Source: a virus
IMG/VR virus record: IMGVR_UViG_3300032073_004165
Span: 1 to 29,160 of that record
Reading direction: 5' to 3' (one strand)
DNA: 29,160 nucleotides
Below the pieces are notes generated by a model that was not told the DNA's origin, did no database searches, and saw only the letters and a list, made by a program, of their open reading frames with translations. Shown here piece after piece: positions 3,229 through 19,801 of this stretch. Each line of letters opens with the position of its first letter. Position 1 is the first letter of the stretch. The position numbers and the translations under genes are program-made.

Positions 3229-4117
3229 TTAACCAATCCTCCAATTTAACTTTAGGTTCCCATCCCAATATGTCTTTAGCTTTTGAGTTGTCAGCTTTAG
3301 TGTCTCTTGCCTCACCAAGTCTTTGCGGTAAGTTTATGTAAAACTCTTCCTTGTCCACCATCTTGACAATATCCATAACACTAAAGTTCACACCGGTTCC
3401 TACATTAAATGTTTCTCCAAGAGCTTTACTGTTGTCGCAAAATGCTGCCTTCATGTTGGCCTCGACGACATCTGAAACATGGGTAAAATCTCTAGTTTGG
3501 AGTCCATCTCCTACAACGGTCAGAGGTTCACCCGCCGCATGTTGCCTTTGAAACAAACCTATAACTGGTGCGTACTGACCTTTAGTTGGTTGTCTTTCTC
3601 CGTAAACATTAAAGTACCTTAGCGTAACGGTTTCTAATCCATACAACCTGAAAAACATCTTGCACAAATCTTCCCCCGCAACCTTACTGGTTGAGTAAGC
3701 GTTTAAGCAGTCGTTTGGCATGTCCTCTTTTAGTGGTGTAGGATTTTTAACACCGTAAGCCGCCGATGTTGAAGAATAAACAACTCTCTTGACACCATGC
3801 TCTCTAGCGGCCTGAAGAACGCTACAAGTTCCTACTACGTTAGAAAGACTGGCCATTAACGGGTTTTGAATACAGGGTTGTATTCTAGACTCTGCCGCCA
3901 AATGAAATACAAAATCTACTCCTTCAAACTTATCAATGATATCGTAGTGATCTTGAACAGATAGTAAGTTATATTCGGCTTTGTCGTTGTAGTAAAATTG
4001 GTCATGAGCATCTGCCGACTCATCGTCTATAACGATTACCTCGTGACCATCTTTAATTAGTCTATCTACGATGTTAGACCCTATAAACCCGCAACCTCCA
4101 GTTACTATTGTTTTCAT
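3188..4117 (-). CDS. NAD-dependent nucleotide-sugar epimerase/dehydratase (extended SDR)
   Basis: This is a 309-residue extended short-chain dehydrogenase, close to the usual length for GalE/WbpP-type sugar epimerases. The NAD site GGCGFIG is at 7-13, acidic residues DD at 31-32 end strand 2, FHLAA is at 71-75, SSTSAAYG at 115-122 and the catalytic YSTSK at 141-145. RYFNVYGERQ and VGDGLQTRDFTHVSDV are typical of UDP-sugar substrates. It would interconvert a nucleotide sugar feeding the neighbouring transferases. It overlaps the upstream gene by ATGA. The family is certain. The substrate (UDP-Glc/Gal, UDP-GlcNAc or a uronate) is not resolved. Confidence 0.93.
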   Translation of the reverse strand: MKTIVTGGCGFIGSNIVDRLIKDGHEVIVIDDESADAHDQFYYNDKAEYNLLSVQDHYDIIDKFEGVDFVFHLAAESRIQPCIQNPLMASLSNVVGTCSVLQAAREHGVKRVVYSSTSAAYGVKNPTPLKEDMPNDCLNAYSTSKVAGEDLCKMFFRLYGLETVTLRYFNVYGERQPTKGQYAPVIGLFQRQHAAGEPLTVVGDGLQTRDFTHVSDVVEANMKAAFCDNSKALGETFNVGTGVNFSVMDIVKMVDKEEFYINLPQRLGEARDTKADNSKAKDILGWEPKVKLEDWLNESTSTISNASES

Positions 4118-4998
4118 AGGTTGTCACTTTTCCTTTCAAGTTTAGAGGATAGTTCGTTGTTTTTTAGCAGTCTTGCTAATCTAGCGGTTCTTCTAAAACA
4201 GTTATGTCTACTTTTGACTTGACCCTTTATTATTGATGTCATATCTGCCCCTTCGGATTCCTTGAAGAGTGTTCCAAAGATACTGTCTAGCATCTTTTGC
4301 TGTTGATCTGGAACCTTAATTTTTACGGAGTCTGATTTAAGAATCGAATCAAATAAGATTTGGGATGAAACAAAATTAATGTCTCCTACTAGATACGATT
4401 TTTTATACTTGTCATAAAAGGTTACTGCTGACGTTACATCCAGCGTCATGTCGCAATAATTGTCTTCAGGATGATTAGGATTGAACGACACTACGTGGTA
4501 ATCACCCTTTTCGTCTTTTCTTAAATCCTTAAGAAGCTCGTTATTATCCAAAGCGAAGAAGCAAGTATCTAACTTATAGGGAGGTGTTGCTAAATTAGGT
4601 ATGAACACGTCTGCGGCTGGATAGATACCCTTGACATCTCTCCTTGTTTTTTGTAGGTTATTAGTGCTGTCGTAGAGATTTGTAAACATAAGCGGCATGT
4701 TTATGTCGGCTTGTTTGACAATTTCCTGTATCTGCTCTACATCCTGATCGCTAGCACCTGTAACATTCAACACTAGGTCTGTCTTCTTGCTTGCAGCTAG
4801 ATATTTTAGGGCGTCTTGAGATAAGAACCTAAAATGCGTAATAAAAACTTCTGGATTAACCATGTCAAAGGTGTCAAACACACTTTGGTTTTGTTCTGAC
4901 CACATGTGAGACTCTTGAGCTACCTCCTGCAAACATCTTTGCATATACATCGCTTCAGTGGATAATACGGAGCAGTAATTTTGAAATAGGGTTTTCAT
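4114..4998 (-). CDS. Uncharacterised protein of the glycan cluster
   Basis: This is a 294-residue protein that I do not recognise. VFITHFRFLSQDALKYLAAS (51-70) and TDLVLNVTGASDQDVEQIQE suggest alternating strands and helices as in a GT-B or CgeB-like Rossmann fold. The tail SRHNCFRRTARLARLLKN resembles the H-x-x-x-R-x-x-x-L helix that ends some GT-B glycosyltransferases. There is no signal peptide or membrane segment. It is coupled by ATGA on both sides, between the nucleotidyltransferase-like gene and the epimerase, so a role in the same glycan pathway is likely. A catalytic motif is not evident. Confidence 0.45.
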   Translation of the reverse strand: MKTLFQNYCSVLSTEAMYMQRCLQEVAQESHMWSEQNQSVFDTFDMVNPEVFITHFRFLSQDALKYLAASKKTDLVLNVTGASDQDVEQIQEIVKQADINMPLMFTNLYDSTNNLQKTRRDVKGIYPAADVFIPNLATPPYKLDTCFFALDNNELLKDLRKDEKGDYHVVSFNPNHPEDNYCDMTLDVTSAVTFYDKYKKSYLVGDINFVSSQILFDSILKSDSVKIKVPDQQQKMLDSIFGTLFKESEGADMTSIIKGQVKSRHNCFRRTARLARLLKNNELSSKLERKSDNL

Positions 4999-5744
4999 AT
5001 ATTCATCATCCTTTTAAGTGTCTTTATGTTTTGTATTTTTAGAATTCCGGAATCACCGCAGTCGCTTATCAAGAATCTGTTATCTCTTAATACTACGTTC
5101 ACCGCTTCAAACAGAAATCTGTTTTTAAATTCCGGATTTGACACGGTAGCGTATAGACTATTAATAGCTTTTCTATTTTGCAGAAACATTATTTCGCTCC
5201 AGACTCTTTCTTTTACGCCCACAGATAGACTCTCTAATATTTCATCATTGCCTATTACACCAATGTCAAAACTCTTAAACTCGTCTTGCTTTTGCGACAA
5301 AACTGTCGATTTTTCGTAGGTCATAGAAGATAGAATCTCTGGAGTGAGAAGTAAAGATCCATTACAAAATAATATCTTGTCGTTATTGATATTGTGTAGA
5401 CAGAGTCTAGCACTCTCACAGTCATTAGAGTTGAAGTGGATTTGATTTTCCACCACTCTTATATTAATATCCGCAAAGTTTCTCTTGACAAAATTTACAG
5501 TCTTTTCAGTCTCGAAACCTGCACATAATACTATCTCAAAGTTCTTAAACGAAGCCTTTATAGCATCTACTTGTCTTTGTATTAGCGTTCGCCCGTGGAT
5601 CTTCATCAGTGATATAGGTCCGTAGGATTTCATTCTGTATCCATGATTTTCACTGAACAAAACGATAGAAATAAACCTATCTGGATAGTCAATGTTCGCC
5701 TCTGGACCAACAGCACTTGTTATATGTCTACTTCTTTGTCTCAT
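4995..5744 (-). CDS. Nucleotidyltransferase-like protein (sugar nucleotidyltransferase fold)
   Basis: This is a 249-residue protein. After a 22-residue leader it has FISIVLFSENHGYRMKSYGP followed by ISLMKIHGRTLIQRQVDAIK. This matches the opening of NTP_transferase/MobA-like enzymes (a G-x-R-M loop, then a K-x-L/I-x-G-K/R-x-L-I-x-R segment). KILFCNGSLLLT (about 124-135) sits where the metal-binding strand would be, but the usual D is replaced by NGS, so activity may differ. Such enzymes activate sugars as nucleotide derivatives, which would suit the surrounding glycosyltransferases. It is coupled by ATGA to both neighbours. Confidence 0.55.
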   Translation of the reverse strand: MRQRSRHITSAVGPEANIDYPDRFISIVLFSENHGYRMKSYGPISLMKIHGRTLIQRQVDAIKASFKNFEIVLCAGFETEKTVNFVKRNFADINIRVVENQIHFNSNDCESARLCLHNINNDKILFCNGSLLLTPEILSSMTYEKSTVLSQKQDEFKSFDIGVIGNDEILESLSVGVKERVWSEIMFLQNRKAINSLYATVSNPEFKNRFLFEAVNVVLRDNRFLISDCGDSGILKIQNIKTLKRMMNI

Positions 5745-6538
5745 ATTTTCTTATAATTATTCTGCTCTTTGGAGAGATCGAGCACACCATTAATCATTAA
5801 GTTATAATCTTGGTATTCCATATAGAGACCATTGATAACATTTCTGTTTATAAGAATGTTGTCGTTTGAATCAAACACTGTAATTTGCTCAAGATCCTCA
5901 TTAATACATGTGTTCACTTTAGAAAATACATTACTATCAAATAACTTCCCTGCTACAACCTTGCAAACGTATCCACTTCTAGCATCCATTATTGGCGTGA
6001 TAGAATCTGTATCTATAATGGATTGAGCCTTTGTGAAATGTATTACTAGTTTACAGTTAACGCCCTCTGACTTTAGCTCTTCCACTAAGTTGGCGTATAT
6101 TTGAGTATGAAGATTTTTTTCTAAAACGGATATAACACATGTTATTTTGTCTGAAGCATAGTCAATTTCTTTTATAGAATTGACCGTGTTTTTTAATTCT
6201 TGTTCCGACTGATTATCAATATCAATTAGTATACCAAAATTAACGTCTGACTCTTTCTTTGCAATTCCTAATATTTCATCTGGTGATCCCTCCTTGGACT
6301 TGTACCAATTGTAATCCCTATTCATATTACAAAACCGTGTTAGTTGGTAGTACTGATTATTCTCTTCAAAATCAAGTACCAACCTTTCGGGAATGCTCGC
6401 TTCTTTTCTTTGTAAAAATTTTTCCAACCTGTTTGCTTTGCAGCCGTCTTGCCAAATACCAAACGGCCCACCGCTAGACGGTGGGGTGCATTGTGCAAAA
6501 CAACACTTTGAACAATTCATTATTACTTTTTGTTGCAT
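5741..6538 (-). CDS. Cysteine-rich N-terminus plus GT-A-like protein
   Basis: The ATG at 6538 (265 residues) is chosen because GAAGAGG lies five bases upstream and it follows the previous stop by one base. A longer reading would need a TTG inside the previous gene. The N-terminus carries CSKCCFAQC (9-17), a further GC at 32-33 and RFCN at 68-71, with WY nearby, suggesting a metal-binding (zinc or Fe-S) module. The following FGILIDIDNQSEQELKNTVN resembles the first strand and helix of GT2 transferases. I have seen the same order (CxxCxFA, GC, RFCN) in uncharacterised phage and environmental proteins, but I cannot name a family. A role in the glycan cluster is inferred from position. Confidence 0.5.
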   Translation of the reverse strand: MQQKVIMNCSKCCFAQCTPPSSGGPFGIWQDGCKANRLEKFLQRKEASIPERLVLDFEENNQYYQLTRFCNMNRDYNWYKSKEGSPDEILGIAKKESDVNFGILIDIDNQSEQELKNTVNSIKEIDYASDKITCVISVLEKNLHTQIYANLVEELKSEGVNCKLVIHFTKAQSIIDTDSITPIMDARSGYVCKVVAGKLFDSNVFSKVNTCINEDLEQITVFDSNDNILINRNVINGLYMEYQDYNLMINGVLDLSKEQNNYKKI

Positions 6539-6539
6539 A

Positions 6540-6956
6540 CTAACCTCTTCTTGCAACTACTTCAAAATGAATGCCCGATAGATTAACAGTTACAATATTC
6601 AAACCTAGAGACGCAAGAATCTCGGTCACTAATGAAGATTGGGGCATCGAGTTTGATTTTTTTATAATCTGTGAGGCTTCTTCTTCGCTAATCATGTTAT
6701 TCATAACAAGTCTAGAAAATAGTCTAATATCTGTACCTCCGACAGACAGTGTTCCGCCTAACCTAAGTTTGCCAACTATAGCGACCAAACAGTCTTTTAC
6801 TTTATCTATATCAAATAGATCTAAGACTTCAGACGCTACAATCTCTGTACACTCATTATCAGACACTTCCATAAAATTAATGTAATTGTCAGAGCAAACA
6901 ATGTGTTTGTATCCTCCGACCGTTTCTTCGCCTACTTTAGCGATTTGAACTTTCAT
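6540..6956 (-). CDS. Short methyltransferase-like protein, probably degenerate
   Basis: This is a 138-residue protein. The segment DLFDIDKVKDCLVAIVGKLRLGGTLSVGGT resembles the region of class I methyltransferases around motif III (an acidic aromatic element, then a helix, then LRLGGTL). The end, LASLGLNIVTVNLSGIHFEV, resembles the last two strands of such enzymes. The SAM-binding glycine-rich N-terminus is missing, so it may be a remnant or a non-catalytic partner. It is coupled to the glycosyltransferase by ATGA and has a strong GGAGGT ribosome site. The functional call is weak; that it is a gene is clear. Confidence 0.55.
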   Translation of the reverse strand: MKVQIAKVGEETVGGYKHIVCSDNYINFMEVSDNECTEIVASEVLDLFDIDKVKDCLVAIVGKLRLGGTLSVGGTDIRLFSRLVMNNMISEEEASQIIKKSNSMPQSSLVTEILASLGLNIVTVNLSGIHFEVVARRG

Positions 6957-7966
6957 TTCCTACCTCCGTAAGCCATATCGAATATTCTATTCCAATTGTT
7001 AATAAATTTTTCTTCCGAAAACTTTTTCAGTACTGTTTCTCTAGCTCTCTGACCCATTGTTTTTCTTAGGTCGTCGTCTTCCAACAGTTTTTGTATTGAT
7101 GCCGCCAACTCTTTCTCATCGTTTGAGCAGAATCCATTCACGCCATCCTCCATAATTTCAGGTATCATACACGTTGCAGTAGTTACAACCGCACACCCAC
7201 AAGCCATAGCCTCTAAAAGAGAGGTTGGAACCGGACTGATTGTCGAAGTGTTTAAAAAGACCTTGCAACCATTGTATCTAGAAACTAAGTCCTCTATACC
7301 GTTTGCTGTTCCACCCCTGACCCCCGGAATTTGTTCGCTATCCTTGCCTACTACGTCTACCTCTTTATCTGAAAAGTTCTTTACAATACGTTGCCAACCA
7401 CTAAAATTACAGCAATAATCCCTAGTGGCAAATTCGTTGACAACACTTAAGATATCCACAGTCTTTTCTTCTTCTGTATGCTTAAATGTTTCCGTATCCA
7501 CTGAGTGATGAATAACTTCAGTGTTGGCGGGTATACGCCATTTGCTAACAGAGTACTCAGAGATAAAAACGTTTAGGTCGCCCACCATAGACTTCATTCC
7601 TGAAAATTGTTCTTCTGTCCAGTGCGGCAGAGGTAAGGTATGCTCCAAAGACACCAAGGGGATGTCAAGATTACTTTGAATACTTTTAGATACTTGGAAC
7701 TGACCAAACTTGCTCTGGCTTAAAATAAAATCAAAGTTTATAGCAGAAGGTAGGCTGTTCTCAGCTAGAATATGATGGTTTTCTGGGATTGCACCGTAGC
7801 TTTCGTCCCACTTCTTGCAGTCGTTATATCTAAACGAATAAAAATTATGTCCCGTTTTACATAACTGGCTTTGATATCTCTCATGTGTATCAAACGTCAG
7901 AATGTTATATTTTTCTTTCTTTGGAAAAAGGGCGGTGTTGATCACACCAGTGGTTTTAAAACTCAT
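6953..7966 (-). CDS. GT-B glycosyltransferase, GT4 family
   Basis: This is a 337-residue protein. The C-terminal Rossmann domain carries SPVPTSLLEAMACGCAVVTT (244-263), the classic GT4 donor-binding E-x7-E region, followed by the IPEIMEDGVNGF loop. The N-terminal acceptor domain has FDFILSQ (78-84) and a linker VIHHSVDTETF (151-161), as in GT4 enzymes. It would transfer a sugar from a nucleotide donor with retention of configuration. The start has GGAGGT six bases upstream and overlaps the preceding GT4 gene by 11 bases. Confidence 0.87.
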   Translation of the reverse strand: MSFKTTGVINTALFPKKEKYNILTFDTHERYQSQLCKTGHNFYSFRYNDCKKWDESYGAIPENHHILAENSLPSAINFDFILSQSKFGQFQVSKSIQSNLDIPLVSLEHTLPLPHWTEEQFSGMKSMVGDLNVFISEYSVSKWRIPANTEVIHHSVDTETFKHTEEEKTVDILSVVNEFATRDYCCNFSGWQRIVKNFSDKEVDVVGKDSEQIPGVRGGTANGIEDLVSRYNGCKVFLNTSTISPVPTSLLEAMACGCAVVTTATCMIPEIMEDGVNGFCSNDEKELAASIQKLLEDDDLRKTMGQRARETVLKKFSEEKFINNWNRIFDMAYGGRK

Positions 7967-9098
7967 TTAACACCTCCATCATTTTCTTTCCTATGTTTTC
8001 GTATGAGAACTTATCAACCGCATTTAAGCCAGAAGCTAAGGCTTTTTCACGGTGACGAACTGGGTCTCTTTTAAAGCTTTCATAGTAAGCTCTCATGGCT
8101 TCTCTAATACTTTTCTCACACGGTGTAAACCAATATTCTCTGCCCGTAAACATGTCTGGAAATGCTGAGTCAGAACATTTGCAGCAAGAGAAAACGCCAT
8201 CGACCAAATATCCTGTGAAGATATCATCATTGTCAATAAACTCCGCTGGTCCGCCAAAGTTGCTGCATATTGGAGTATTACCAAAAGCCATTGCGTCCAA
8301 GGATGGTATCGACCAAGCCTCCCCGTGAGATGGTAGTAAAAAACAGTCGCAATATTGATGTAATCCAAGCAATTCTTGTTCACTTAGCTTTACTGATATA
8401 ACTGCTTCTTTCTTGTATTTGTCAACATTGTCGTAGATTCTTAGTTCGGCTTTATTCTTTTGCAGTGTTTGATCTAAAATAACATGTAGATCTTCAGGGC
8501 TTCTACCAAACTTGTTCACTTTTAATATTAACGATACATCTTCAGATTTGTCAAACTCACTATGAAAACAGGAGCATATAGAATCCATGTTTTTTCTATC
8601 GTTCAGATCTCCGGCGTAGTAGAACTTGAACGTATTGTCTAACTGTGGAATATTAGGTGTCTTGTACTTTTTCTTATACTTTTTTATGTCTGTAGCATGA
8701 TGGATGACTCTAACAGGTATATCAATCCCATCTTGAATTAATGACTTTTTAAGATGCTCGTTGGCTACCCATATTTCGTCAACCACTTGTAATTGTGTAA
8801 ACCAAGCCAAGTGTCTTATGCTTTGAGATTCAGCTTCTAAGAATGCTATGTTTTTCTTAAAGCCTCCAGTCCCGACAATGTGGTGTGGTAGTACATGCTG
8901 GATACACACATCGCAATCGGCAGAACTTTTCTTTTCAAATTCTAAAATCTTTGGGTGAATGTCTTCCCTGTCAGAGGTGAGCGTAATGTTCCTACAAACA
9001 ACGTCAACTCCAGCACTATCCAGTGCTAACATTTGATCTGTAGCGGCTTGTGACCAGCCACCAAATTCTCTATAATGTGCTATGTAGAGTAATTTCAT
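7956..9098 (-). CDS. GT-B glycosyltransferase, GT4 family
   Basis: This is a 380-residue protein opening MKLLYIAHYREFGGWSQAAT, with the N-terminal glycine loop of GT4 enzymes. DEIWVANEHLKKSLIQDGID and VIHHATDIKKY form the linker. LPSHGEAWSIPSLDAMAFGN (255-274) is the donor site, with aspartate in the second acidic position. FTGYLVDG follows, and an unusual CCKC stretch at 305-308 may bind metal. It is about average length for the family. It overlaps both neighbours (ATGA upstream, 11 bases downstream), so it sits in one operon of three consecutive GT4 genes. Confidence 0.87.
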   Translation of the reverse strand: MKLLYIAHYREFGGWSQAATDQMLALDSAGVDVVCRNITLTSDREDIHPKILEFEKKSSADCDVCIQHVLPHHIVGTGGFKKNIAFLEAESQSIRHLAWFTQLQVVDEIWVANEHLKKSLIQDGIDIPVRVIHHATDIKKYKKKYKTPNIPQLDNTFKFYYAGDLNDRKNMDSICSCFHSEFDKSEDVSLILKVNKFGRSPEDLHVILDQTLQKNKAELRIYDNVDKYKKEAVISVKLSEQELLGLHQYCDCFLLPSHGEAWSIPSLDAMAFGNTPICSNFGGPAEFIDNDDIFTGYLVDGVFSCCKCSDSAFPDMFTGREYWFTPCEKSIREAMRAYYESFKRDPVRHREKALASGLNAVDKFSYENIGKKMMEVLNEF

Positions 9099-10777
9099 CT
9101 TATGAGACTCCTTTCCCGCATGACTTGAACCCTCTTCTCTTCCCAGCTATTGTTTCTCATGCAGAGGTTACGCATCTGGTCGTAAGCGATATCAAAGTTG
9201 AACTCAACCCTGTGGTTAATTCCATCAAAAGCTGCTGAGGATTCATTGAAGTACATGCCTCCGGTAGAGCTTGTTGCCGACCTGTAAAGTAGGTCTCTTG
9301 TCATTCTAGATTCAAACCAAGTATTTAGTTTGCTGGGATCTCCCAATACATTTACAATTAGCCACTTAGCAAGATTGTTTGTATTCGTTGTATAGTTCAC
9401 ATCTTCAGGTTTTGGTGCCGGATTATGGATCTTAGGTGGCGAAGCCCAAGTTGCCTGTATTGGCTCTAATTCAATACTATCAAAATAGTCTTCCCACTTT
9501 TTACCACTCATGTGCCACTGAAAATGCTTTTCAAAATTTGTTCTCGTTCTTTTTCCTTCGGCGGCTCTTTCTTCATCGCTCTTAGCAAAAAAGTCTAAGA
9601 AGTATTGAGCAGCTAAATCATTGTCTGGGACAGCTCTCAAACACCCCGTTTCAAGTTCTTTGTACAGGGCTGCTGGTTTGATTGGATATCCTTCTAGTTT
9701 TCGTATCTCACTTTCCATAGCAGAATAATCTGTTCCGCAAACTGGAACACCGCAGGCAGCAGCTTCCACGTATGGTAGCCCAAAACCTTCGCAGTTAGCA
9801 TATTGAGTATATAGGTCAAACAGATTTATTATTGAAGATAGTTGTTCATACGTCGCACCGTTTTTGACATTTGAAAGGGTACTACCCCACTTGCCCGTAA
9901 ACGGTGATTGTGCTACAGCACCCTTGAATAATGAAGGGAATACGTTTTTAGTCTCCGGACAAATATAGGTAAAGAGAACGTGTGAAGAAAGCCCGTGCTC
10001 TTGGACTAACTCGGGTATGTCCCAACCCAAATCTGGATATGACGTGTGGCAATATAGATAATACTTTTTATCTTCGGACTTGTCTAAAAACTTGCGAAAT
10101 GCTTCAAACAAATCTGGGTATAGTTTGCGTCTTTGATTACGCATAACCGTTCCTATAATTTTGTACTCTGGGTCTATGCCAAAAGATTCCTTGTGTGCTT
10201 TCTTGTCCGCTACTACTCCGTAGGCAGGATGTGCGGAGGGTGGTGCAGATCCGAGATAATTAATGGTGTCGTTGGATTGATCCGTGAGCACTTTTCCGGC
10301 CCAGTCTGAATAGGTTAGACAAGCGTCCGCACCAGCGTATGTAGCCACCCATTGCCTAGCCTGTGGCCTAGCATCTACCGTTGGCATAATAGCCCACTTA
10401 AAGTATTTCCGGAATGGGCTTCTTTCGGCAAAATCAAGCATCCAAAAGTCTCTGATGTCGCATACCACGTCTGGTATAAAATCAAGACACACATGCTCAA
10501 AAATCCATTCTCCAAATTGGCCAGCACCAGAACCTTGATACGCATCCATTTCCTCTTTAGATGCCTTTGGTTCAAAGTCCGTATTTGGCACTACTCCATA
10601 ATACTGCCAAGGTATATCGTTGGCACGAGGATCGTTCCTTTGTCCATACGAGGCCATCTCAGCGATTTCATATTTGCCTGTTCCATGTAGATAATTTAGA
10701 ATTTCCCTAGTGTAGGTGGCATATCCAGTATTTAAGAATGTAGCTTCGCTACAGAAAAGTATGCGTTTTTTTCTCAT
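9095..10777 (-). CDS. GT-B glycosyltransferase, GT4 family, with C-terminal extension
   Basis: The ATG at 10777 (560 residues) is preferred: it follows the ssb stop by one base, has AAGGA upstream, and gives the normal start MRKKRILFCSEATFLNTGYA. The core ends with GFGLPYVEAAACGVPVCGTD (331-350), the GT4 donor motif. A further 120 or so residues (about 440-560), including NTWFESRMTRDLLYRSAT, are not part of the usual fold. They may bind an acceptor or partner. It is the first gene of the glycan cluster and is transcribed after ssb, perhaps from the promoter at 11117-11145. Confidence 0.85.
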   Translation of the reverse strand: MRKKRILFCSEATFLNTGYATYTREILNYLHGTGKYEIAEMASYGQRNDPRANDIPWQYYGVVPNTDFEPKASKEEMDAYQGSGAGQFGEWIFEHVCLDFIPDVVCDIRDFWMLDFAERSPFRKYFKWAIMPTVDARPQARQWVATYAGADACLTYSDWAGKVLTDQSNDTINYLGSAPPSAHPAYGVVADKKAHKESFGIDPEYKIIGTVMRNQRRKLYPDLFEAFRKFLDKSEDKKYYLYCHTSYPDLGWDIPELVQEHGLSSHVLFTYICPETKNVFPSLFKGAVAQSPFTGKWGSTLSNVKNGATYEQLSSIINLFDLYTQYANCEGFGLPYVEAAACGVPVCGTDYSAMESEIRKLEGYPIKPAALYKELETGCLRAVPDNDLAAQYFLDFFAKSDEERAAEGKRTRTNFEKHFQWHMSGKKWEDYFDSIELEPIQATWASPPKIHNPAPKPEDVNYTTNTNNLAKWLIVNVLGDPSKLNTWFESRMTRDLLYRSATSSTGGMYFNESSAAFDGINHRVEFNFDIAYDQMRNLCMRNNSWEEKRVQVMRERSLIR

Positions 10778-10778
10778 T

Positions 10779-11096
10779 TTAGTCCTTGTCCAAACATCCA
10801 AAGTCGAATTGATTTACTCTAAAAATAATTCCGGTGTCATCTTCTGTGTATGAGTTTCTTGCAGATGCGTTTATGGTCATCTTCATGTCACTCTTTCCCA
10901 ACTTGGCTATGGTTCTTGCTCCGCTGTCCCAAGCCTTGAAGCGAAGATATGTAGAATGTCTTTTCTTTTCGCCTCTTTTATTTCTGAAGTACTCATAGAT
11001 ATATAGAGTAAACTCGCAGTATTCCGCACCTGAATCTTCGTCTATTTCTACTTCCGGGTCGTGATACAAATACCCAGTAAACATGCAATTATTCAT
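10779..11096 (-). CDS. ssb: Single-stranded DNA-binding protein (OB fold)
   Basis: The protein is 105 residues, starting at the ATG at 11096, which has GGAGG five bases upstream. An upstream alternative adds 13 residues without a ribosome site. MNNCMFTGYLYHDPEVEIDE matches the SSB opening (N-x-x-x-x-G-x-L-x-x-DPEV). STYLRFKAWDSGARTIAKLG corresponds to the E/W-x-R-V-x-x-F/W-G-K-x-A strand and helix, and SARNSYTEDDTG to the last beta hairpin. It has no flexible acidic tail with the DDIPF-type interaction peptide, only CLDKD. It would coat single-stranded DNA during replication. The gene follows the polymerase genes and has its own promoter candidate. Confidence 0.82.
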   Translation of the reverse strand: MNNCMFTGYLYHDPEVEIDEDSGAEYCEFTLYIYEYFRNKRGEKKRHSTYLRFKAWDSGARTIAKLGKSDMKMTINASARNSYTEDDTGIIFRVNQFDFGCLDKD

Positions 11097-11104
11097 TTGT
11101 CCTC
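11094..11104 (-). promoter_or_regulatory. Start-deciding ribosome binding site of ssb
   Basis: The minus strand reads GGAGGACAAATG. This perfect GGAGG five bases ahead of the ATG at 11096 fixes the ssb start and rejects the upstream in-frame start at 11135. Confidence 0.75.
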
Positions 11105-11116
11105 CAATATACTTAC

Positions 11117-11145
11117 ATAGTAGTATCCAAACCACAAAAGTACAA
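11117..11145 (-). promoter_or_regulatory. Promoter-like element upstream of ssb (TTGTAC-17-TACTAT)
   Basis: On the minus strand TTGTAC (11140-11145) is followed after 17 bases by TACTAT (11117-11122). Each hexamer alone is a weak sigma70 match. From the -35 to four bases past the -10, however, the element agrees with the strong promoter at 15102-15130 at 23 of 33 positions, including most of the spacer and a GTAA after the -10. It lies in the 58-base gap between the polymerase C-half and ssb. The leader would be only about 14 bases and includes GGAGG. Confidence 0.5.
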
Positions 11146-11154
11146 CCATTTTAT

Positions 11155-12714
11155 TTATATTTCGTGAACTTTATTCACTATAAAAGAATTATCGTTTTGA
11201 ACTTCTCCGCATAACAAGAGGTTGTTACCTTCGTATAAAACGTATTGATATTTTTCTCTGGCTTCTGGGAAGATTATTACGCTGTCTAGGGAGCATGTCG
11301 AGTCTTCTATTGTCATGAACGACATGAGCTTTCCCTTTGTTTTGCCCTTTTTGACCTTGTGATTGTTGATCCTGTTTATGTTTGCTGCTATGCAAATGTC
11401 TTTTCCCGCCTTCCCGTTTAACACATCTACACAGCTAGTGTTTGCTGAAGAGGTGTCGGAAGACTCAACCTTTGCAAGAGAAACTGGACAACCCAAAAAT
11501 TTTGTCTCTTGTTCAATAATCCAAGCTGGATCATCAGAGAGATCGTAGGGCGGATTGTTGAGCATCTCAGCTTCGTTAAAAACAACTTGACTCCTTTGTT
11601 GCCTTGATGTGCCGCCGCCCTCTTTCTTGGTGGGTGCAAGTTCAAGTAAACACTCACGTAGTGAACCCCATTTTCTCTTAGGGTAATTATTGACTAACCA
11701 AGTCATCTCAGCTTTTGTTAACTCTTTTATGATTAAATACTCATACAAGGCCTTATTCCTAGACACGTTAGTGGCTTTTGTTGAGAAAAAACCTATTGAG
11801 GCCAAAGACTTAAATGCTGTTGAGTTTATGTTTGGTGCTATGTAGACTAATACATCCATCCAATTAAAACTCTCAGGCTCTTTGCTAGAAGTTTTTGACG
11901 CTTCATTAATCGCAGAGATTACCTTATCACCAGTGACACCAGTGAGAGACTTGACATCTTTGACCCCAAAACATATTCCATCGTCTGTTAGTGAAACTTT
12001 TGTAGAAAACGAGTTTAACTTTGGTATTCTTACATGTATATCAAAAAGCTTCGCTTCGTTTACAAGTTCGTAAATTTCTTGATGAGGGTCTTGTTTCTCA
12101 CTCGCATGGTGTAGGTAAGACAGGAAAAATTCCTTAACGTGATTCGCCTTGTACCATGCTGACCAAAAAGAGTCTACGGCGTAAGCCACAGCGTGAGACT
12201 TGTTAAAGGAATACCTAGATGACTTTTCAATCCATCCAAATATTTCTTCGGCCTCGTCTGTAGTGACAATACCTTTGTCAGCAGCTCCTTCTAAAAAAGA
12301 CTTCTTAACCTTAGCCATTAAGTCTGCCTTTTTCTTACCGATAGCTTTACGAAGATCGTCGGCCTCTTTCAGGTCAAAACCAGCTAGCTTTTGTGCTATA
12401 CGCATAGATTGCTCTTGGTAAACAAGAACACCATAAGTAGGCTTAAGAATATCTTCAAGCGACTCGTGTAGGTAAGTCACATCTTCAAGCTTGTGCTTTC
12501 TGTCAACAAATCTTTGGGTCATTGACTTCCCGTCGATAACGGCTTTCAAGCATCCGGGCCTAATCAGTGCAATCAAGGCGGCAAGCTCTTCTATGTTTTT
12601 AGGTGCCAACTTTTTAGACCAACTTCTACCAAGATTGCTTTCAAGCTGAAATACGCCTTTAGTTTTCCCGTCTTTAAATAGATCCCAAGTCTTTTCATCC
12701 AAGTAGTTTACCAT
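11155..12714 (-). CDS. dnaE: DNA polymerase III alpha subunit, C-terminal half (split gene)
   Basis: This 519-residue protein corresponds to the DnaE region after the palm. It has VFQLES (21-26), LIALIRPG (47-54), YGVLVYQEQSMRIAQKLAGF (94-113), LRKAIGKKK (121-129) and the SFNKSHAVAYA element (169-179), which is nearly invariant in bacterial DnaE. It then shows a helix-hairpin-helix-like region and a C-terminal OB fold (about 435-510, GKLMSFMTIEDSTCSLDSVI). It lacks the catalytic aspartates, which are in the other half. It starts with ATG after TTAAGGAATTG, in the same frame as the exonuclease and four codons after that gene's TAA (inclusive). Together the halves (540 + 519) equal a normal DnaE, so a functional two-chain polymerase is likely. 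Confidence 0.93.
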   Translation of the reverse strand: MVNYLDEKTWDLFKDGKTKGVFQLESNLGRSWSKKLAPKNIEELAALIALIRPGCLKAVIDGKSMTQRFVDRKHKLEDVTYLHESLEDILKPTYGVLVYQEQSMRIAQKLAGFDLKEADDLRKAIGKKKADLMAKVKKSFLEGAADKGIVTTDEAEEIFGWIEKSSRYSFNKSHAVAYAVDSFWSAWYKANHVKEFFLSYLHHASEKQDPHQEIYELVNEAKLFDIHVRIPKLNSFSTKVSLTDDGICFGVKDVKSLTGVTGDKVISAINEASKTSSKEPESFNWMDVLVYIAPNINSTAFKSLASIGFFSTKATNVSRNKALYEYLIIKELTKAEMTWLVNNYPKRKWGSLRECLLELAPTKKEGGGTSRQQRSQVVFNEAEMLNNPPYDLSDDPAWIIEQETKFLGCPVSLAKVESSDTSSANTSCVDVLNGKAGKDICIAANINRINNHKVKKGKTKGKLMSFMTIEDSTCSLDSVIIFPEAREKYQYVLYEGNNLLLCGEVQNDNSFIVNKVHEI

Positions 12715-12716
12715 TA

Positions 12717-12727
12717 CAATTCCTTAA
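12717..12727 (-). repeat. Direct repeat copy 2 (TTAAGGAATTG), ribosome site of the polymerase C-half
   Basis: The minus strand reads TTAAGGAATTG, then TA, then ATG of the C-half. It is identical to the copy at 13401-13411, so the exonuclease gene is bracketed by the two. The AAGGA serves as the Shine-Dalgarno sequence. Confidence 0.7.
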
Positions 12728-13398
12728 ACAAACAACTTTCCGTCAGCAAACGCTTTCTCAAATTTCATATTTCTGTAAACTGCACGTCTAGACTTTTGTA
12801 GCTTAATAAAAATATTAGCCGTATCCTTAACATCCTGAAGTGCATCGTGTGCATTTTCTGATGATAGCCCCATGCGTTCTCTTAGGCTGTCCATACTAAT
12901 TGACTTGACGCTGGGATCTCCCTCCGTCCATAGCCATACATCATCCATTACATCAATCTTATAGATTTGGTGAAATAGTTTTTGACACTGCCTTTTATCA
13001 TCATAGGGGCCGTATTCTTTACAAAGGCGATCCACAATTTTCATATCATATCCAAGAATGTTAAAGCCTGCTGGAATTGGTGCAAAGTATGGTGTTCCTT
13101 TCCAGTTGTACTTGTTAACAAAGGCACAGAACTTTTTCCATACACCTTTTGGTAGCGGTGCTTTAGCTAGCTGTGCTCTGGTTTGTCCGGTAACTTTCAA
13201 CGCACCTTCTTCGATTGGGTCTACGCCAGCAGCGATAGCTTTGTCATCATCAATAATAGGTCGCATCATACTGTTAAACTCACCTTTGAGTCTAAAGTTT
13301 CTGCCGTCTAAGGCGATAGCCGCAATCTGAGTAGGTTGACATCGCATGGGGTTTCTACCGCCAGTCTCAAAGTCGAAAACAATTATGTCTCTGTTCAT
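12724..13398 (-). CDS. DnaQ-like 3'-5' proofreading exonuclease (DEDDh)
   Basis: This 224-residue protein carries all exonuclease motifs: Exo I FDFETGG (D9, E11), Exo II FNILGYDM (D118), and Exo III NAHDALQDV (H184, D189). This makes it a DEDDh nuclease like the epsilon subunit, acting with two metal ions to remove mismatched 3' ends. It lies exactly between the two polymerase alpha halves, overlapping the first by ATGA and ending 9 bases before the second. Proofreading for that polymerase is the obvious role. It is in frame with the downstream half: TAA GGA ATT GTA then ATG. A fused product would need readthrough of the stop. Confidence 0.92.
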   Translation of the reverse strand: MNRDIIVFDFETGGRNPMRCQPTQIAAIALDGRNFRLKGEFNSMMRPIIDDDKAIAAGVDPIEEGALKVTGQTRAQLAKAPLPKGVWKKFCAFVNKYNWKGTPYFAPIPAGFNILGYDMKIVDRLCKEYGPYDDKRQCQKLFHQIYKIDVMDDVWLWTEGDPSVKSISMDSLRERMGLSSENAHDALQDVKDTANIFIKLQKSRRAVYRNMKFEKAFADGKLFV

Positions 13399-15017
13399 AC
13401 CAATTCCTTAATCATCATAAGTTTATCTAATAAGTTAATTCCTAACACGTCAAACTTAACGTGTCCTAAAGCTTCTAGGTCGGCCATTTCGAGACCGGCT
13501 ATTTTTTCTGTTCCACTTTTGGGGTTGACCATTGGACACACTTCAAACAGTGGGTTTGCAGATATGACAACACCAGCCGCGTGTTTTCCCTGCGTTTTAA
13601 ATGTACCTTCTATATCTATAGCCTGCCTAAAGTATTCCGAGTAGTCGCCCTTTAACTGTCCTTCTTCATTTACATAGCAATAGTCCCTCAACTCTTCTGG
13701 GTTGTTTATTAATGCCCACTTTATGATTGATCTATCTTCTTCGTCCATTTCTGCGAGTTGGTCGGAGATAGCTGCTTCGTCTGGTATTGACTTAGTTATT
13801 TCATTCATCTCGCCAAATCCGCAAGCACTGTTGACACGCAATACTTCTTTTATAGCACTTCGACCTTGTAGTCTACCAAATGTCAGCATCTGACTGACAT
13901 TACTTTGACCGTATTTGTCTTTTAGGTAGGAGATTATCTCGTCCCTTTTGCCTCCGGGAACATCAATATCAATATCTGGAAGAGATATGTGATCTTCCGT
14001 ATTACGACCAGAGTTATAAAATCTTTCAAACAAAAGATCAAATTCAATTGGGTCAATCTGAGTAATGCCTATCAAGTAGGAGATGAGACATCCGGCGGCA
14101 GATCCTCTTCCCGGACCAACCATCCAGCCTTGGCTCTTGCAATAATTTATAATGTCCCAAACGATTAGAAAATAGCCAAACAAGTCGGCTTTTTCTATAA
14201 CATCAAACTCCATTCTAAACCTATCGCCATACGCTTTCTTTTGATCTGGATCTTTAATCTTGTGTGCCAACAGCTCAGTCCACCCCTGTCTAGCTAATTG
14301 TCTTAGATAATCTTTCTGCGTTTCTCCTTTGGGGGTTCCAAACCTAGGAAGCATTGGTCCGCTGAGTATATTATAGTTTTCACACTTGTCGAATATCTCT
14401 CGGAAAAGATAAAGTTTATTATCGTTTATTATGATCTCGCCTATTTCGGTCTTGTCTCTGACAAAATATTCATTACACTCAAAAAATTCATGGTTTTCTA
14501 TCTGATCTCCAGAGTTTAGAGCTTTGTTTATTTTAGGCATAGTTGTCTTCATTTTAGAACAAAGCATGATCCTATGTAGATCCGCCTCAGATCTGTCTAC
14601 ATAGTACGTGTCCATAAAAGACTCTGTCTTGTTATAGTAGTCTTCACCTCTTATTGGTGATAGGGATTCGTTACTTGATACCGAAATTAAGTTCCCCTTT
14701 TCACAGATACTAACCATAGAAGGTGTAGAGAAATTACCTTCGGCGTCAATAGAGGAGACTATTTTTATTAAGTCAAGCCAGCCTTCATGGTTCTTAGCAA
14801 AAAGCGAGAACCCGTCAAAAGAACAGCCTATGATAGGCTTAACGTCGTTAGAGATACAGGCGTTGTAAAAAGCGACCGCACCTGATATGGATTTATAGTC
14901 AGCTATGCCGCAGGCCGCATAAGAGTTTTTGCGACATTTTTTAGCTAACTGTTTAGGCTTTGAAAAACCTTTTTGAAGAGAGTAGTGCGTAAGGTTACAC
15001 AGTGGGAACCAATCCAT
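13395..15017 (-). CDS. dnaE: DNA polymerase III alpha subunit, N-terminal half (PHP and palm)
   Basis: This 540-residue protein begins with a PHP domain (1-about 75, KPIIGCSF at 60-67). The HxH metal pair of that domain is replaced by C7 and L9, so it is probably inactive. The palm follows: GPGRGSAAG (301-309), the catalytic pair in SLPDIDIDV (D348, D350), GKHAAGVVIS (477-486), and the third aspartate in KFDVLG (D523). The chain stops 17 residues later, in the linker before the fingers, which begin in the gene at 11155-12714. All three catalytic residues are therefore on this half. The start has AAGGA upstream and lies about 80 bases below the promoter at 15102-15130. Confidence 0.94.
   Translation of the reverse strand: MDWFPLCNLTHYSLQKGFSKPKQLAKKCRKNSYAACGIADYKSISGAVAFYNACISNDVKPIIGCSFDGFSLFAKNHEGWLDLIKIVSSIDAEGNFSTPSMVSICEKGNLISVSSNESLSPIRGEDYYNKTESFMDTYYVDRSEADLHRIMLCSKMKTTMPKINKALNSGDQIENHEFFECNEYFVRDKTEIGEIIINDNKLYLFREIFDKCENYNILSGPMLPRFGTPKGETQKDYLRQLARQGWTELLAHKIKDPDQKKAYGDRFRMEFDVIEKADLFGYFLIVWDIINYCKSQGWMVGPGRGSAAGCLISYLIGITQIDPIEFDLLFERFYNSGRNTEDHISLPDIDIDVPGGKRDEIISYLKDKYGQSNVSQMLTFGRLQGRSAIKEVLRVNSACGFGEMNEITKSIPDEAAISDQLAEMDEEDRSIIKWALINNPEELRDYCYVNEEGQLKGDYSEYFRQAIDIEGTFKTQGKHAAGVVISANPLFEVCPMVNPKSGTEKIAGLEMADLEALGHVKFDVLGINLLDKLMMIKELV
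13401..13411 (-). repeat. Direct repeat copy 1 (TTAAGGAATTG), ribosome site of the exonuclease
   Basis: The minus strand reads TTAAGGAATTG, then GT, then ATG of the exonuclease. It lies inside the last codons of the polymerase N-half (IKEL). The same 11 bases recur at 12717-12727 ahead of the C-half. Confidence 0.7.
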
Positions 15018-15788: not shown

Positions 15789-16454
15789 CTAAAAGTTTGG
15801 TAGTTCTGGAAATAATCTATATCTAATGTCTTCCCATAAAGCTCCGGTTATAATCATTGAAGCTTCATTGTCGGACGGGTAATGCACACCCATTAACATC
15901 CTAGCCATACCCGCCATTTGAATCTTGTCAAAAAAATGCTCTGAGAACTGTGGATACTTAGCTGCTAATATATACGCTGATAAAGCTGCGTAGGAAGTGT
16001 GGCCAGATGGATAAGCTGGTGTTTGTGCTGTTTTTGAATCTCTTACTTTTATTTTTAGACCGTACTTATCCGCTAACTGGTAAGGTCTAGGTCTGTTGTG
16101 TATTTGTTTTAAGTTCATAATCACTGGACGTATGAGTCTCCAAGACTTTTTGAATATGTCCTTTGGAAATTCTATATTCAAATGTTTAAGAGTCTTGTGA
16201 AAAAGAGCATTAGGATCTTCGTCTACTAATTTTATTAGATCAAGTTGAGAATTGGAAACGCTCTTTGTTAGCTCCGAAAGGTATATCAACTCTCTTTTTG
16301 TTGTCTCACTGTCGTTCTGGGGCGGATCTGGCAATACGTCATCCCAACCAATAGTTATCGTATCTGAAACCTTGACGGTCTTGGGTTTGTCTGTATATTT
16401 AATATTCTTTATCTGTTCAGACAAAAATTTATCTGCACCAATTATGTAGCTCAT
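15789..16454 (-). CDS. PAP2-family phosphatase (acid phosphatase / haloperoxidase superfamily)
   Basis: This 221-residue protein has all three phosphatase motifs: K-x6-RP at K116-P124 (KQIHNRPRP), PSGH at 149-152, and R185-x5-H191-x3-D195 (RMLMGVHYPSD). H191 would be the nucleophile and H152 the acid. No membrane helices or clear signal peptide are visible, so it resembles soluble class A acid phosphatases more than lipid phosphatases. Possible roles are phosphate release from small phosphoesters or removal of phosphate from undecaprenyl-type carriers; the sequence does not decide. Its start overlaps the CPLC protein stop by ATGA. Confidence 0.88.
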   Translation of the reverse strand: MSYIIGADKFLSEQIKNIKYTDKPKTVKVSDTITIGWDDVLPDPPQNDSETTKRELIYLSELTKSVSNSQLDLIKLVDEDPNALFHKTLKHLNIEFPKDIFKKSWRLIRPVIMNLKQIHNRPRPYQLADKYGLKIKVRDSKTAQTPAYPSGHTSYAALSAYILAAKYPQFSEHFFDKIQMAGMARMLMGVHYPSDNEASMIITGALWEDIRYRLFPELPNF

Positions 16455-16749: not shown

Positions 16750-17964
16750 TTAGGAAAATAGTTCAGAAATTACTTTTCCTGAGTTAGCTATTTTCATAGG
16801 TCGTCCACTATTACTTGTGTAAGTAGTTTGTAACGAAATGCCAAGAGCCTTACAAATTGAGGCCATGACATCTTGGGAGGAATAAGGTTCTGTCTCCACC
16901 CGTGTACCATCTTTATTAGTTGCACCAACAGCTATGCCGCCATTCATACCAGCACCGCCCACGACCACACTCCAGCTTCTTGCCCAGTGATCTCGACCAG
17001 CGTTTTGATTAATACGTGGAGTTCTACTAAATTCGCCCATCCATATGATAGCTGTATCCTCCAATAGTCCTCTTTGCTCTAAATCCTCTACTAATGCACT
17101 CATACCCTGATCTAGCATTGGTAACTTTGTATCTCTTAATGTTGGGAATATGTTTTGATGGTTGTCCCAACCGCCTAGTCCAACCTCTATAAACGGCACA
17201 CCAACCTCTACTAAACGTCTAGCCATTAGGCATCCTTTGCCAAAGCTATTGTCTCCGTATCTTTCTTTAACGTTCTCTGGCTCGCCTTCAACTTTCATAG
17301 CATCCATTTCAGAACTTGTCAAGACATTAAATGTCTTACGTAGAACTTTCTGGTGTTCTTTTGCTAAGGCTCCTCTGCTGCTATTTATAAAGTTGGTTTC
17401 TATTATATCTAGTGCCTGTGCTCTCTGGTAAAATCTTTGATCTATTTTCATATTTAGATTTCTAATTCTACCGTCGCTGTTTACAACAAACGGTGAATAC
17501 TCTGCACCCAAGAATCCAGCACCAGCACTAGGGCCGTTTACAGACACAAATTGAGGTATCATAAGTTCTGGCTTTTCAAGTTCCTTAGATAATACGGAGC
17601 CATAACTAGGATGAACCATGTTTGGGTTTGGTACGTAGCCTGTGTGCATGTAGTAGCGACCACGCATGTGGTCAGCTTCACGGGTGCTCATGCTGCGAAC
17701 AATCGCCATGTTGTGCATCTGCTTTGCCATTAGTGGCATATGCTCAGAAATCTCAACGTCGCCGGTAGTTGATATTGGCTTGAATGGCCCGCCGGTTGGA
17801 GCATCAGGTTTTAAATCCCATATATCCATAGTGGACGGTCCACCGCCCATCCATAATAGGATGGCCGATTTTCCGTTTTTCTTTAGCTGCTGCTCGTTCG
17901 CCTTTAGTGTTTGTGTCAGAGCAGCAACTCCCGCTAGGGATGATAAAAATTGTCTTCTTTTCAT
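16750..17964 (-). CDS. DUF1501 protein with Tat-type signal
   Basis: This is a 404-residue protein. The ATG at 17964 is chosen because it gives the twin-arginine signal MKRRQFLSSLAG and follows the preceding stop by one base (TGATATG). DUF1501 marks are WMGGGPSTMDIWD (38-50), GGWDNH (264-269), EFSRTPRINQNAGRDHW (311-327) and a late GRPMK. DUF1501 belongs to the alkaline phosphatase/sulfatase clan and is abundant in Planctomycetota, generally exported. Substrate is unknown even in hosts. It is unrelated in detail to the second copy at 18539-19801 beyond the core motifs, so this is not a recent duplication. Finding it between phage replication genes is unusual. Confidence 0.9.
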   Translation of the reverse strand: MKRRQFLSSLAGVAALTQTLKANEQQLKKNGKSAILLWMGGGPSTMDIWDLKPDAPTGGPFKPISTTGDVEISEHMPLMAKQMHNMAIVRSMSTREADHMRGRYYMHTGYVPNPNMVHPSYGSVLSKELEKPELMIPQFVSVNGPSAGAGFLGAEYSPFVVNSDGRIRNLNMKIDQRFYQRAQALDIIETNFINSSRGALAKEHQKVLRKTFNVLTSSEMDAMKVEGEPENVKERYGDNSFGKGCLMARRLVEVGVPFIEVGLGGWDNHQNIFPTLRDTKLPMLDQGMSALVEDLEQRGLLEDTAIIWMGEFSRTPRINQNAGRDHWARSWSVVVGGAGMNGGIAVGATNKDGTRVETEPYSSQDVMASICKALGISLQTTYTSNSGRPMKIANSGKVISELFS

Positions 17965-17965
17965 A

Positions 17966-18340
17966 TCAAAACCTAAAGTGAAAGAATAATCCGCTAAACG
18001 GCGAGGGGTAAACAGGAACGGGTTGTGGCTGAATAATAACCGGAGGACCATAATAATGATGAATTACTGGTGGTCTATACATCCTGTACTGATAGGGAAG
18101 AACATACGGCCTGCCAATTATAATACTTCCATGCCTGTAGTTATGGCTGGGTCTAACCTGTTGTTGCTGAGGTCTTTGCCATTCCTGCTTCCCGAATCCG
18201 GCGGGTCTCTGTGGTTGCGGTCTCGTAAAGTCTCTAGGAACACTCTTTACAACCGGAGGTTTAATAACTTTACGCTCAGGTTGCTGTGCTTCAGCCGACA
18301 GCGGAGTAAGCAAGAAACATAGTAATGCTAAGTATTTCAT
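17966..18340 (-). CDS. Secreted proline/tyrosine-rich protein
   Basis: This is a 124-residue protein. The ATG at 18340 has AAGGAG seven bases upstream and gives a clear signal peptide, MKYLALLCFLLTPLSAEA, with AEA as the cleavage site. Longer readings run through the cysteine-rich gene in another frame and are rejected. The mature chain is rich in P, Q, Y, H and R, with a QEWQRPQQQQVRP stretch and a PPVIHHYYGPPVII block (90-103), ending in aromatic FHFRF. This composition suggests an extended, low-complexity exported protein, perhaps surface or periplasmic. No family is recognised. Confidence 0.7.
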   Translation of the reverse strand: MKYLALLCFLLTPLSAEAQQPERKVIKPPVVKSVPRDFTRPQPQRPAGFGKQEWQRPQQQQVRPSHNYRHGSIIIGRPYVLPYQYRMYRPPVIHHYYGPPVIIQPQPVPVYPSPFSGLFFHFRF

Positions 18341-18350
18341 TTTAATCTCC

Positions 18351-18539
18351 TTACGCACAATCAGGACAAGAACATTGGTCTTCACAGTTACAGTCTGATT
18401 TAATACATGGGCAGTCATCTTTACATATTTCGCAAACCATATCTGGCTCCTTGTTGAACATATTTTTAATTTCATCTTTGTTAATTAAGCAAATAGCGGC
18501 TACGATTATAACTGCTAAAAATGGTATCTTAAGTTTCAT
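18351..18539 (-). CDS. Membrane-anchored cysteine-rich mini-protein (metallothionein-like)
   Basis: This is a 62-residue protein. A hydrophobic segment (about 5-19) is followed by a linker and then nine cysteines in residues 36-61, arranged CxxC (36/39), CxC (43/45), CxC (50/52), CxC (56/58) and C61, with many D and E between. Metallothioneins use this CxC/CxxC pattern to bind metal clusters. Here it is anchored or exported, which they are not, so a metal-capture or disulfide-rich role is inferred. The start overlaps the DUF1501 stop (TAATG) and GGGAG lies seven bases upstream, so it is a real gene despite its length. Confidence 0.7.
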   Translation of the reverse strand: MKLKIPFLAVIIVAAICLINKDEIKNMFNKEPDMVCEICKDDCPCIKSDCNCEDQCSCPDCA

Positions 18540-19801
18540 TAGCCTACTCCCACATTAATATCTGTTAGAATGTTTTTCTCTTCGTTTGTCGTTACTGGCA
18601 TGGGTCTACCTTGGATTCCCATCCAAGTGTTATTTCTCTGCACACCCACATGGTTCAAAACAGTCCATCTCAAATCTGCTGGGCCACACTCGCCGTCTTC
18701 TGGTACTTCTGCGTTAGCATTAGAAGTTCCGATTACACGACCTGTATCGTAGCCTCCACCGGCAAACATCAAAGGGACACTACCACTCCAGTGGTCACGC
18801 CCAGCATTCCCATTAATTTTAGGTGTTCTACCAAATTCTGTAGCAACAACAAGAAGCGTTTTATCAAATAACTCTCTAGCTTCTAGCTCGTCCATTAATA
18901 GGCCAATATATCTGTCTAATGTTACCTGACGGGTATTGAGGGCGTTGACAATACCGTTGTGCATATCCCAGCCGCCATATTGAATATTTACAAACTTAGC
19001 ACCGTTCTGTATGGCTCTAACTGCGGATAAGGCATCCTTGCCTAGTTGATCGTCCTTAAACGTTTCGTACTTTGCGTCTTCTTCTATTCTGAAGGTTTCA
19101 GCGGCCTTGCCCGTAATAGCAGTTACGGCCTGACTTTGGAATTCGCTCCAGCCCTTACCCTGCTCTTTGATGCGTGAATGTTTCTCTACAAGGTCTAGTA
19201 AAGATTTTCTAGCTAGAAATTTATCTTTTTCCATCTTTAACTGCAAATCGCCAACACCTTCTTTGCTAGCCTCGTAGCCCATATATTTTTGCCCCATCCA
19301 AGCAGAGCCATCACCTTCTATCTTGTTCATCTTGATATAGGTGGGAAGACCGTGTGGGTGAGACACTGGACCGTAATAACCAGCCACCATAGCTCCATAA
19401 CTAGGGTAGTTCTGTGAGCTTCCACCTTGATTTCTTTCTCCGCCAACAACCCAATGAGTAGCGGTCTGATGGTTAGAGTCTTTATGGGCAAAGCTTCTGA
19501 CGATATTCACCTTGTCAGATCTTTTTGCTATTTCTTTGAAGAGACCACCTATCTTGACTGTAGGTATCTTTGTTTCAACAAAACCTGTTGCAGAGCGTCT
19601 TTCAACAGGAGCATAAGGGATAGGGTTAAACGTCTCTATATGCGTAGCTCCACCGCCTAGCCATAGAAAAATCACGCTTTTCTCGTTTTTAGTTATTCTG
19701 GGGGAGTACTCATCAGCATATGAGATACCAACATTGTTGGAGGCTAAGTAAGCTCCACCAAGAAAACTAGTGCCGTAAGTTAGGAAATCTCGTCTCTTCA
19801 T
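18539..19801 (-). CDS. DUF1501 protein with Tat-type signal
   Basis: This 420-residue protein begins MKRRDFLTYGTSFLGG, a twin-arginine signal. Core marks are WLGGGATHIETFNP (47-60), GGWDMHN (276-282), TEFGRTPKINGNAGRDHW (321-338) and a late GRPMP. Its first motif differs from the other DUF1501 copy (ETFN where that copy has DIWD), so metal binding or substrate may differ. DUF1501 proteins are exported enzymes of unknown substrate in the alkaline phosphatase/sulfatase clan. It heads the exported block and is likely cotranscribed with the RecB-like gene, ending 26 bases upstream. Confidence 0.9.
   Translation of the reverse strand: MKRRDFLTYGTSFLGGAYLASNNVGISYADEYSPRITKNEKSVIFLWLGGGATHIETFNPIPYAPVERRSATGFVETKIPTVKIGGLFKEIAKRSDKVNIVRSFAHKDSNHQTATHWVVGGERNQGGSSQNYPSYGAMVAGYYGPVSHPHGLPTYIKMNKIEGDGSAWMGQKYMGYEASKEGVGDLQLKMEKDKFLARKSLLDLVEKHSRIKEQGKGWSEFQSQAVTAITGKAAETFRIEEDAKYETFKDDQLGKDALSAVRAIQNGAKFVNIQYGGWDMHNGIVNALNTRQVTLDRYIGLLMDELEARELFDKTLLVVATEFGRTPKINGNAGRDHWSGSVPLMFAGGGYDTGRVIGTSNANAEVPEDGECGPADLRWTVLNHVGVQRNNTWMGIQGRPMPVTTNEEKNILTDINVGVG

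Follow-up and report, generated by a model that had tools for sequence, protein, structure and literature searches.

A probable replicative DNA polymerase of uncultured phages encoded as two DnaE halves around an exonuclease gene

A linear viral contig from IMG/VR (record IMGVR_UViG_3300032073_004165), analysed over its full 29,160 nucleotides (nt) and hereafter called the window, carries the gene for a DNA polymerase III (Pol III) alpha subunit, DnaE, in two parts with an exonuclease gene between them. From our analysis of this locus and its relatives, the three genes probably encode the polymerase with which a large group of uncultured phages replicates its DNA, the DnaE subunit being encoded as two chains. 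All three genes lie on the minus strand. The DnaE N-half (N, 540 residues, 13395..15017) comprises a reduced PHP domain with a degenerate metal site, the thumb, and the palm with the catalytic residues D348, D350, and D523. The gene that follows (X, 224 residues, 12724..13398) encodes a DEDDh-type 3'-5' exonuclease, probably the proofreading subunit. The C-half (C, 519 residues, 11155..12714) contains the fingers with their VFQLES and FNKSH motifs, a helix-hairpin-helix region, and an OB-like domain, after which it ends. As noted in an earlier, sequence-only reading of this DNA, the stop codon of N and the start codon of X share a 4-nt ATGA overlap (13395..13398); X and C are separated by 9 nt (12715..12723), preceded by a Shine-Dalgarno-like AAGGA.

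Pfam matched N to PHP (residues 10-100, 8e-13) and DNA_pol3_alpha (residues 237-526, 7e-69), and C to DNA_pol3_finger (4e-48); the C of one relative also matched HHH_6 and OB. PHROGs assigned N and C alike to DNA polymerase 405, and X to polymerase exonuclease 192. Confident AlphaFold2 models of N (predicted local distance difference test score, pLDDT, 90.4; predicted template modelling score, pTM, 0.87) and C (pLDDT 86.0, pTM 0.64) both matched Pol III alpha structures, N before the palm-fingers linker and C after it. The domains thus follow the DnaE order of PHP, thumb, palm, fingers, helix-hairpin-helix, and OB, though on two chains rather than the single chain of that type. The three catalytic aspartates, in PDIDID and KFD motifs, occur without exception in all 77 aligned sequences, and the window coordinates and the alignment confirmed that N stops 17 residues past D523 with this triad intact. 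In alignments to solved structures, N reaches residue ~564 of Escherichia coli DnaE and C begins at residue ~593, so that the cut falls in the palm-fingers linker, where the sequence-only reading had placed it; part of this linker is absent or replaced. The same reading had recognised the C-half by its two finger motifs and an OB fold; both motifs are present, and the last ~80 residues are predicted to be beta-rich and OB-like. Residues 460-509 of C correspond to E. coli 1010-1058; the chain then stops at residue 519, ~90 residues short, lacking the post-OB C-terminal domain that binds tau in E. coli. The earlier claim that the two chains add up to a normal DnaE length did not hold: N and C total 1059 residues, compared with 1160 in E. 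coli DnaE, because the PHP domain is reduced and the region beyond the OB fold is missing.

Relatives down to ~38% identity were collected by scanning IMG/VR four times and GTDB genomes once. In all 265 family loci where the complete set of N, X, and C was detected, the genes occur in the order proposed from the window and on one strand. An uninterrupted dnaE in close relatives, which the sequence-only reading had named as evidence that would count against it, was found in none of them; the same test, which looks for both parts in one open reading frame (ORF), detected 82 intact outgroup ORFs from bacteria and other phages. Many of the 265 loci overlap as fragments of a shared contig, and counted by distinct N sequence they number ~200; of these N sequences 173 are complete, and there are 143 groups at 95% identity and 37 at 70%. 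Four contigs of the genome collection, beyond IMG/VR, show the same layout. The phage collection contained no close relative among phage isolates, the best N matches being ~30% identical. Metagenome-assembled genome bins with relatives were assigned to SAR202 (a close relative) and to Flavobacteriales and Chitinophagia (other branches), although phage contigs are often mis-binned. N, X, and C are each under strong purifying selection, with a ratio of nonsynonymous to synonymous substitution rates (dN/dS) of ~0.01-0.06 among closer pairs.

The split DnaE is the sole detected DNA polymerase of the group. Neither PolA nor PolB (PF00136 absent) was found in 23 contigs of 105-231 kb in which controls were positive, absences that are provisional because IMG/VR records may be fragments. 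Each of these contigs has one N, except for two in G022; C is single in the 17 contigs tested and broken in one further contig. The exception, a 206-kb record (L304), holds two differing copies of N and X, at ~53.3 kb and 199.4 kb, which reflect either chimeric assembly or genuine duplication. We propose that N, supplying the PHP, thumb, palm, and catalytic metal site, and C, supplying the fingers, helix-hairpin-helix region, and OB domain, reassemble non-covalently, and it is likely that they form one active enzyme. X would proofread in trans, in the way that epsilon serves alpha in E. coli, and in the window's clade the synthesis of all three proteins may be coordinated through their overlapping or abutting frames. 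The split family B polymerase of Aeromonas phage 25, whose parts gp43A and gp43B co-purify and are active, provides a precedent for non-covalent reassembly (PMC2988022).

X matches Pfam RNase_T (2e-11) and has all residues of a DEDDh active site (D9, E11, D118, H184, and D189), which are invariant wherever the ORF covers them. Between the window and its close relatives, the X protein has changed far less rapidly than N or C, synonymous divergence being equal. The 92-96% identity of X where N is 74-78% identical was considered as a sign of recent lateral spread, which was rejected: X has diverged at synonymous sites as much as N and C have, so its high identity reflects constraint. The PHP domain of N also bears on the role of X. 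An active PHP exonuclease is marked by nine metal-binding residues, HHDHEH[C/H]DH (PMC12926913). Deep relatives keep this site as HHDHEHHDH beside an intact X, whereas the window N has CLKYSGNDY at these positions. The site was lost once, together with a PHP deletion in the region of N residues 1-140, in a single clade that includes the window (support 92), and X is kept on both sides of this loss. Because the PHP exonuclease site was lost while X was always retained, and because X combines an intact DEDDh site with universal linkage to the polymerase halves, we consider X a likely 3'-5' proofreading exonuclease of the split polymerase, acting in trans.

Alternatively, X could be an independent nuclease, acting for example on host DNA or in recombination, that is merely located in the gap. 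The closest solved relatives found by sequence are weak matches, among them both Exonuclease I and the PolC exonuclease, and X-related proteins adjoin terminase genes in Bacteroides phages. Such independence is hard to reconcile with the linkage of X to C in all 265 loci, with its being nearly always the sole RNase_T protein of its contig, and with the survival of its DEDDh site, intact, in the clade where the PHP site was lost, and we regard it as unlikely. A comparably small chance is given to a reading in which X is a structural third subunit: the polymerase would then be an obligate N-X-C complex, with the exonuclease replacing the lost linker and bridging the halves, and proofreading would be tied to polymerase assembly.

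The halves might also be rejoined covalently into one DnaE chain, through protein or RNA splicing or through ribosome bypass, as split inteins are expected to do at other breaks of the polymerase in some relatives. In seven distinct loci (L250, L309, L316, L324, L326, L345, and L378), N is broken at GPGRG/S (the slash marks the break), with an intein N-part (CFIPETRV...CTKDHRFLT...stop) and an intein C-part ending in VHN/S (...VHN/SAAG); most of these loci have an endonuclease-like ORF (YYPDFII...VEIKGKG.WY) between the two intein parts. These loci have a fractured-gene layout within the polymerase palm; such "fractured genes," phage genes in pieces, were reportedly described by Dassa et al. 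in 2009. C is broken at FNK/S, with intein N- and C-parts, in L023 (8479-12112) and L378 (6696-9644), the site of the cyanobacterial split DnaE inteins. The polymerase of L378, broken at both GPGRG/S and FNK/S, is therefore in four pieces plus X. In addition, a cis intein of ~260 residues, with an HNH-like stretch recognised by eye, interrupts C at RPG/C in L318 (6695-9094), L326, and L360 (6674-9040). The motifs of all these inteins suggest that they splice. At the N-X-C break itself, no intein parts were seen in the relatives, whose C ORFs do not begin with a recognisable intein, and Rfam detected no intron in the window at the gathering threshold, returning a single chance-level junction match (E value 0.44); an intein or intron at this break was thus rejected. 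Moreover, N ends 15-43 residues (median 21) past the last catalytic Asp in the family loci, and the gap is occupied by the conserved coding frame of X. Given that inteins sit elsewhere in the gene and none at the N-X-C break, N and C are probably joined non-covalently, and covalent rejoining seems very improbable.

We see hardly any prospect that N and C are decaying dnaE remnants in a phage that uses the host polymerase. The gene is broken, its PHP domain has lost the active site in the window, and the post-OB part of C is missing, but the catalytic residues are invariant, dN/dS is low in N, X, and C alike, and both halves have been retained in ~200 distinct loci. An assembly or sequencing artefact, conceivable for one 29-kb linear metagenomic contig, can be dismissed given the same layout in ~200 distinct loci from many metagenomes and in the four genome-collection contigs.

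To trace the split, a tree was built from the palm and finger regions by a quick method and with limited outgroups. All split members fall on one side of one branch (Shimodaira-Hasegawa-like approximate likelihood ratio test, SH-aLRT, 100), so that one origin of the split is enough; the split appears to be old, with a single origin no later than the root of the group. Its likeliest source may be a mobile gene that inserted at the linker, the exonuclease gene taking the gap before the known members diverged, a scenario that we hold only tentatively. Some relatives have additional genes between N and X, and also between X and C. Their domains include HNH_3, Endonuclease VII, and uracil-DNA glycosylase, with HNH or Endonuclease VII genes in several relatives, and further gap genes were judged by eye to encode HNH-like proteins and sugar-nucleotide enzymes. 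In two clades (the L070-L110 and L229-L387 types), the gap between N and X contains conserved small ORFs of ~60-80 residues without a Pfam match, possibly accessory factors of the polymerase; the idea that they represent one conserved fourth subunit was rejected, as no relationship between the two families could be detected. In the window, the 11-bp direct repeat TTAAGGAATTG occurs at each end of X; it was considered as an insertion scar and rejected because it is not kept in the next relatives, and it is better read as two Shine-Dalgarno-like sites.

Several observations weigh against the interpretation of N-X-C as a replicative polymerase with its own proofreader and a mobile-gene origin. 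With respect to processivity, no DnaN-type clamp was found in the same 23 contigs, with positive controls, and no canonical clamp-binding motif was recognised by eye in C. The resemblance between X and known exonuclease domains of epsilon or PolC is remote. The evidence for a mobile origin is circumstantial, since the endonuclease genes could have entered a pre-existing gap. Finally, in deep clades a small ORF separates N from X, and in two loci N lies ~6 kb upstream of X and C. The last two points limit the sequence-only proposal of a three-gene core made as one coupled unit. Support for a core kept as a unit comes from the universal co-occurrence of its genes in a constant order, the conserved active sites, purifying selection, and the absence of any other detected polymerase. 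Coupling at the sequence level holds for N and X in the window's clade, where their frames overlap by 4-14 nt in most loci, and for X and C in most loci, but not in every clade: X and C are closely spaced (≤30 nt or overlapping) in 182 of 207 distinct loci and N and X in 50 of 207, with small ORFs or cargo between N and X in two other clades.

An SSB-like gene lies immediately downstream of C in the window (10779..11135, minus strand) and, as judged from Pfam and the neighbourhoods of relatives, adjoins C in most of them. Upstream of N-X-C, the window has genes for a PD-(D/E)XK exonuclease, a nucleotide kinase, a primase, DnaB, and a RecA/UvsX-type protein. Other genes, all on the minus strand, were also recorded. 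A PAP2-family phosphatase gene (15789-16454) is located just upstream of N's neighbour and occurs near the polymerase in many close relatives. Two DUF1501 genes (16750-18051 and 18539-19801) stand beside the replication genes, and relatives have one to several. The window also encodes an IMP dehydrogenase/GMP reductase-like phage protein (23343-24443) and a glycosyltransferase cluster with a nucleotide-sugar epimerase (2518-10801), whose first glycosyltransferase gene (9095-10801) comes after the polymerase-SSB genes in most relatives.

If our interpretation is correct, a bacterial replicase family that normally works as one chain of more than 1000 residues has operated in two chains throughout the known history of a phage radiation, one that is common in metagenomes. 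The palm-fingers break would then provide a site, already cut in nature, at which to build a split Pol III that can be controlled. Relatives that have lost PHP proofreading and kept the DEDDh protein would serve as natural replicates in which the overlap of two proofreading systems is directly testable, and a single gene family would allow non-covalent assembly and split-intein joining to be compared side by side.

Split phage polymerases are already known in families A, B, and C, those of family C being minimal or cut elsewhere. In a literature search made largely outside the subscription journals, we found no published DnaE that is divided at the palm-fingers linker across a whole clade and has an exonuclease gene between the parts, and keyword searches of two surveys of bacterial C-family polymerases did not find such a layout (PMC3919608, PMC12926913). 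The X-like gene of Bacteroides phage DAC19 was rejected as a precedent because it adjoins a terminase-like gene and not DnaE. In the T4-like Aeromonas phages 25 and 44RR, gp43A and gp43B likewise form a two-chain replicative polymerase from neighbouring genes, and their break carries a homing endonuclease or a spacer (PMC2988022); theirs is a family B enzyme without an exonuclease gene in the gap, whereas N and C belong to family C by Pfam and fold and their break is radiation-wide. Group 2.2 jumbo phages also have the catalytic parts of Pol III alpha on two proteins, but as a minimal core, from distant genes and beside a family B polymerase (PMC7824862); N-X-C has the full PHP-to-OB architecture, neighbouring genes in nearly all loci, and no detected PolB. 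The Cellulophaga phages phiST and phi19:2 (Cbastvirus) encode dnaE in two adjacent genes (KC821621 gp44 and gp45), yet their cut precedes the PDIDID motif (~N residue 341-345) and has no exonuclease gene between the parts. The marine OM43 phages MEP401 and MEP402, whose polymerase also lies in two ORFs around a small gene, have a family A enzyme and a small gap protein whose function is not known (PMC10580990). Cyanobacterial split DnaE inteins resemble the present case in that DnaE is in pieces and differ in that the universal N-X-C break has no intein. The Pol III core of bacteria belongs to the same family and has its DEDDh exonuclease, epsilon, as a separate protein, but its alpha is one chain, whereas the phage alpha described here is two and is paired with an exonuclease distantly related to epsilon (PMC3919608).

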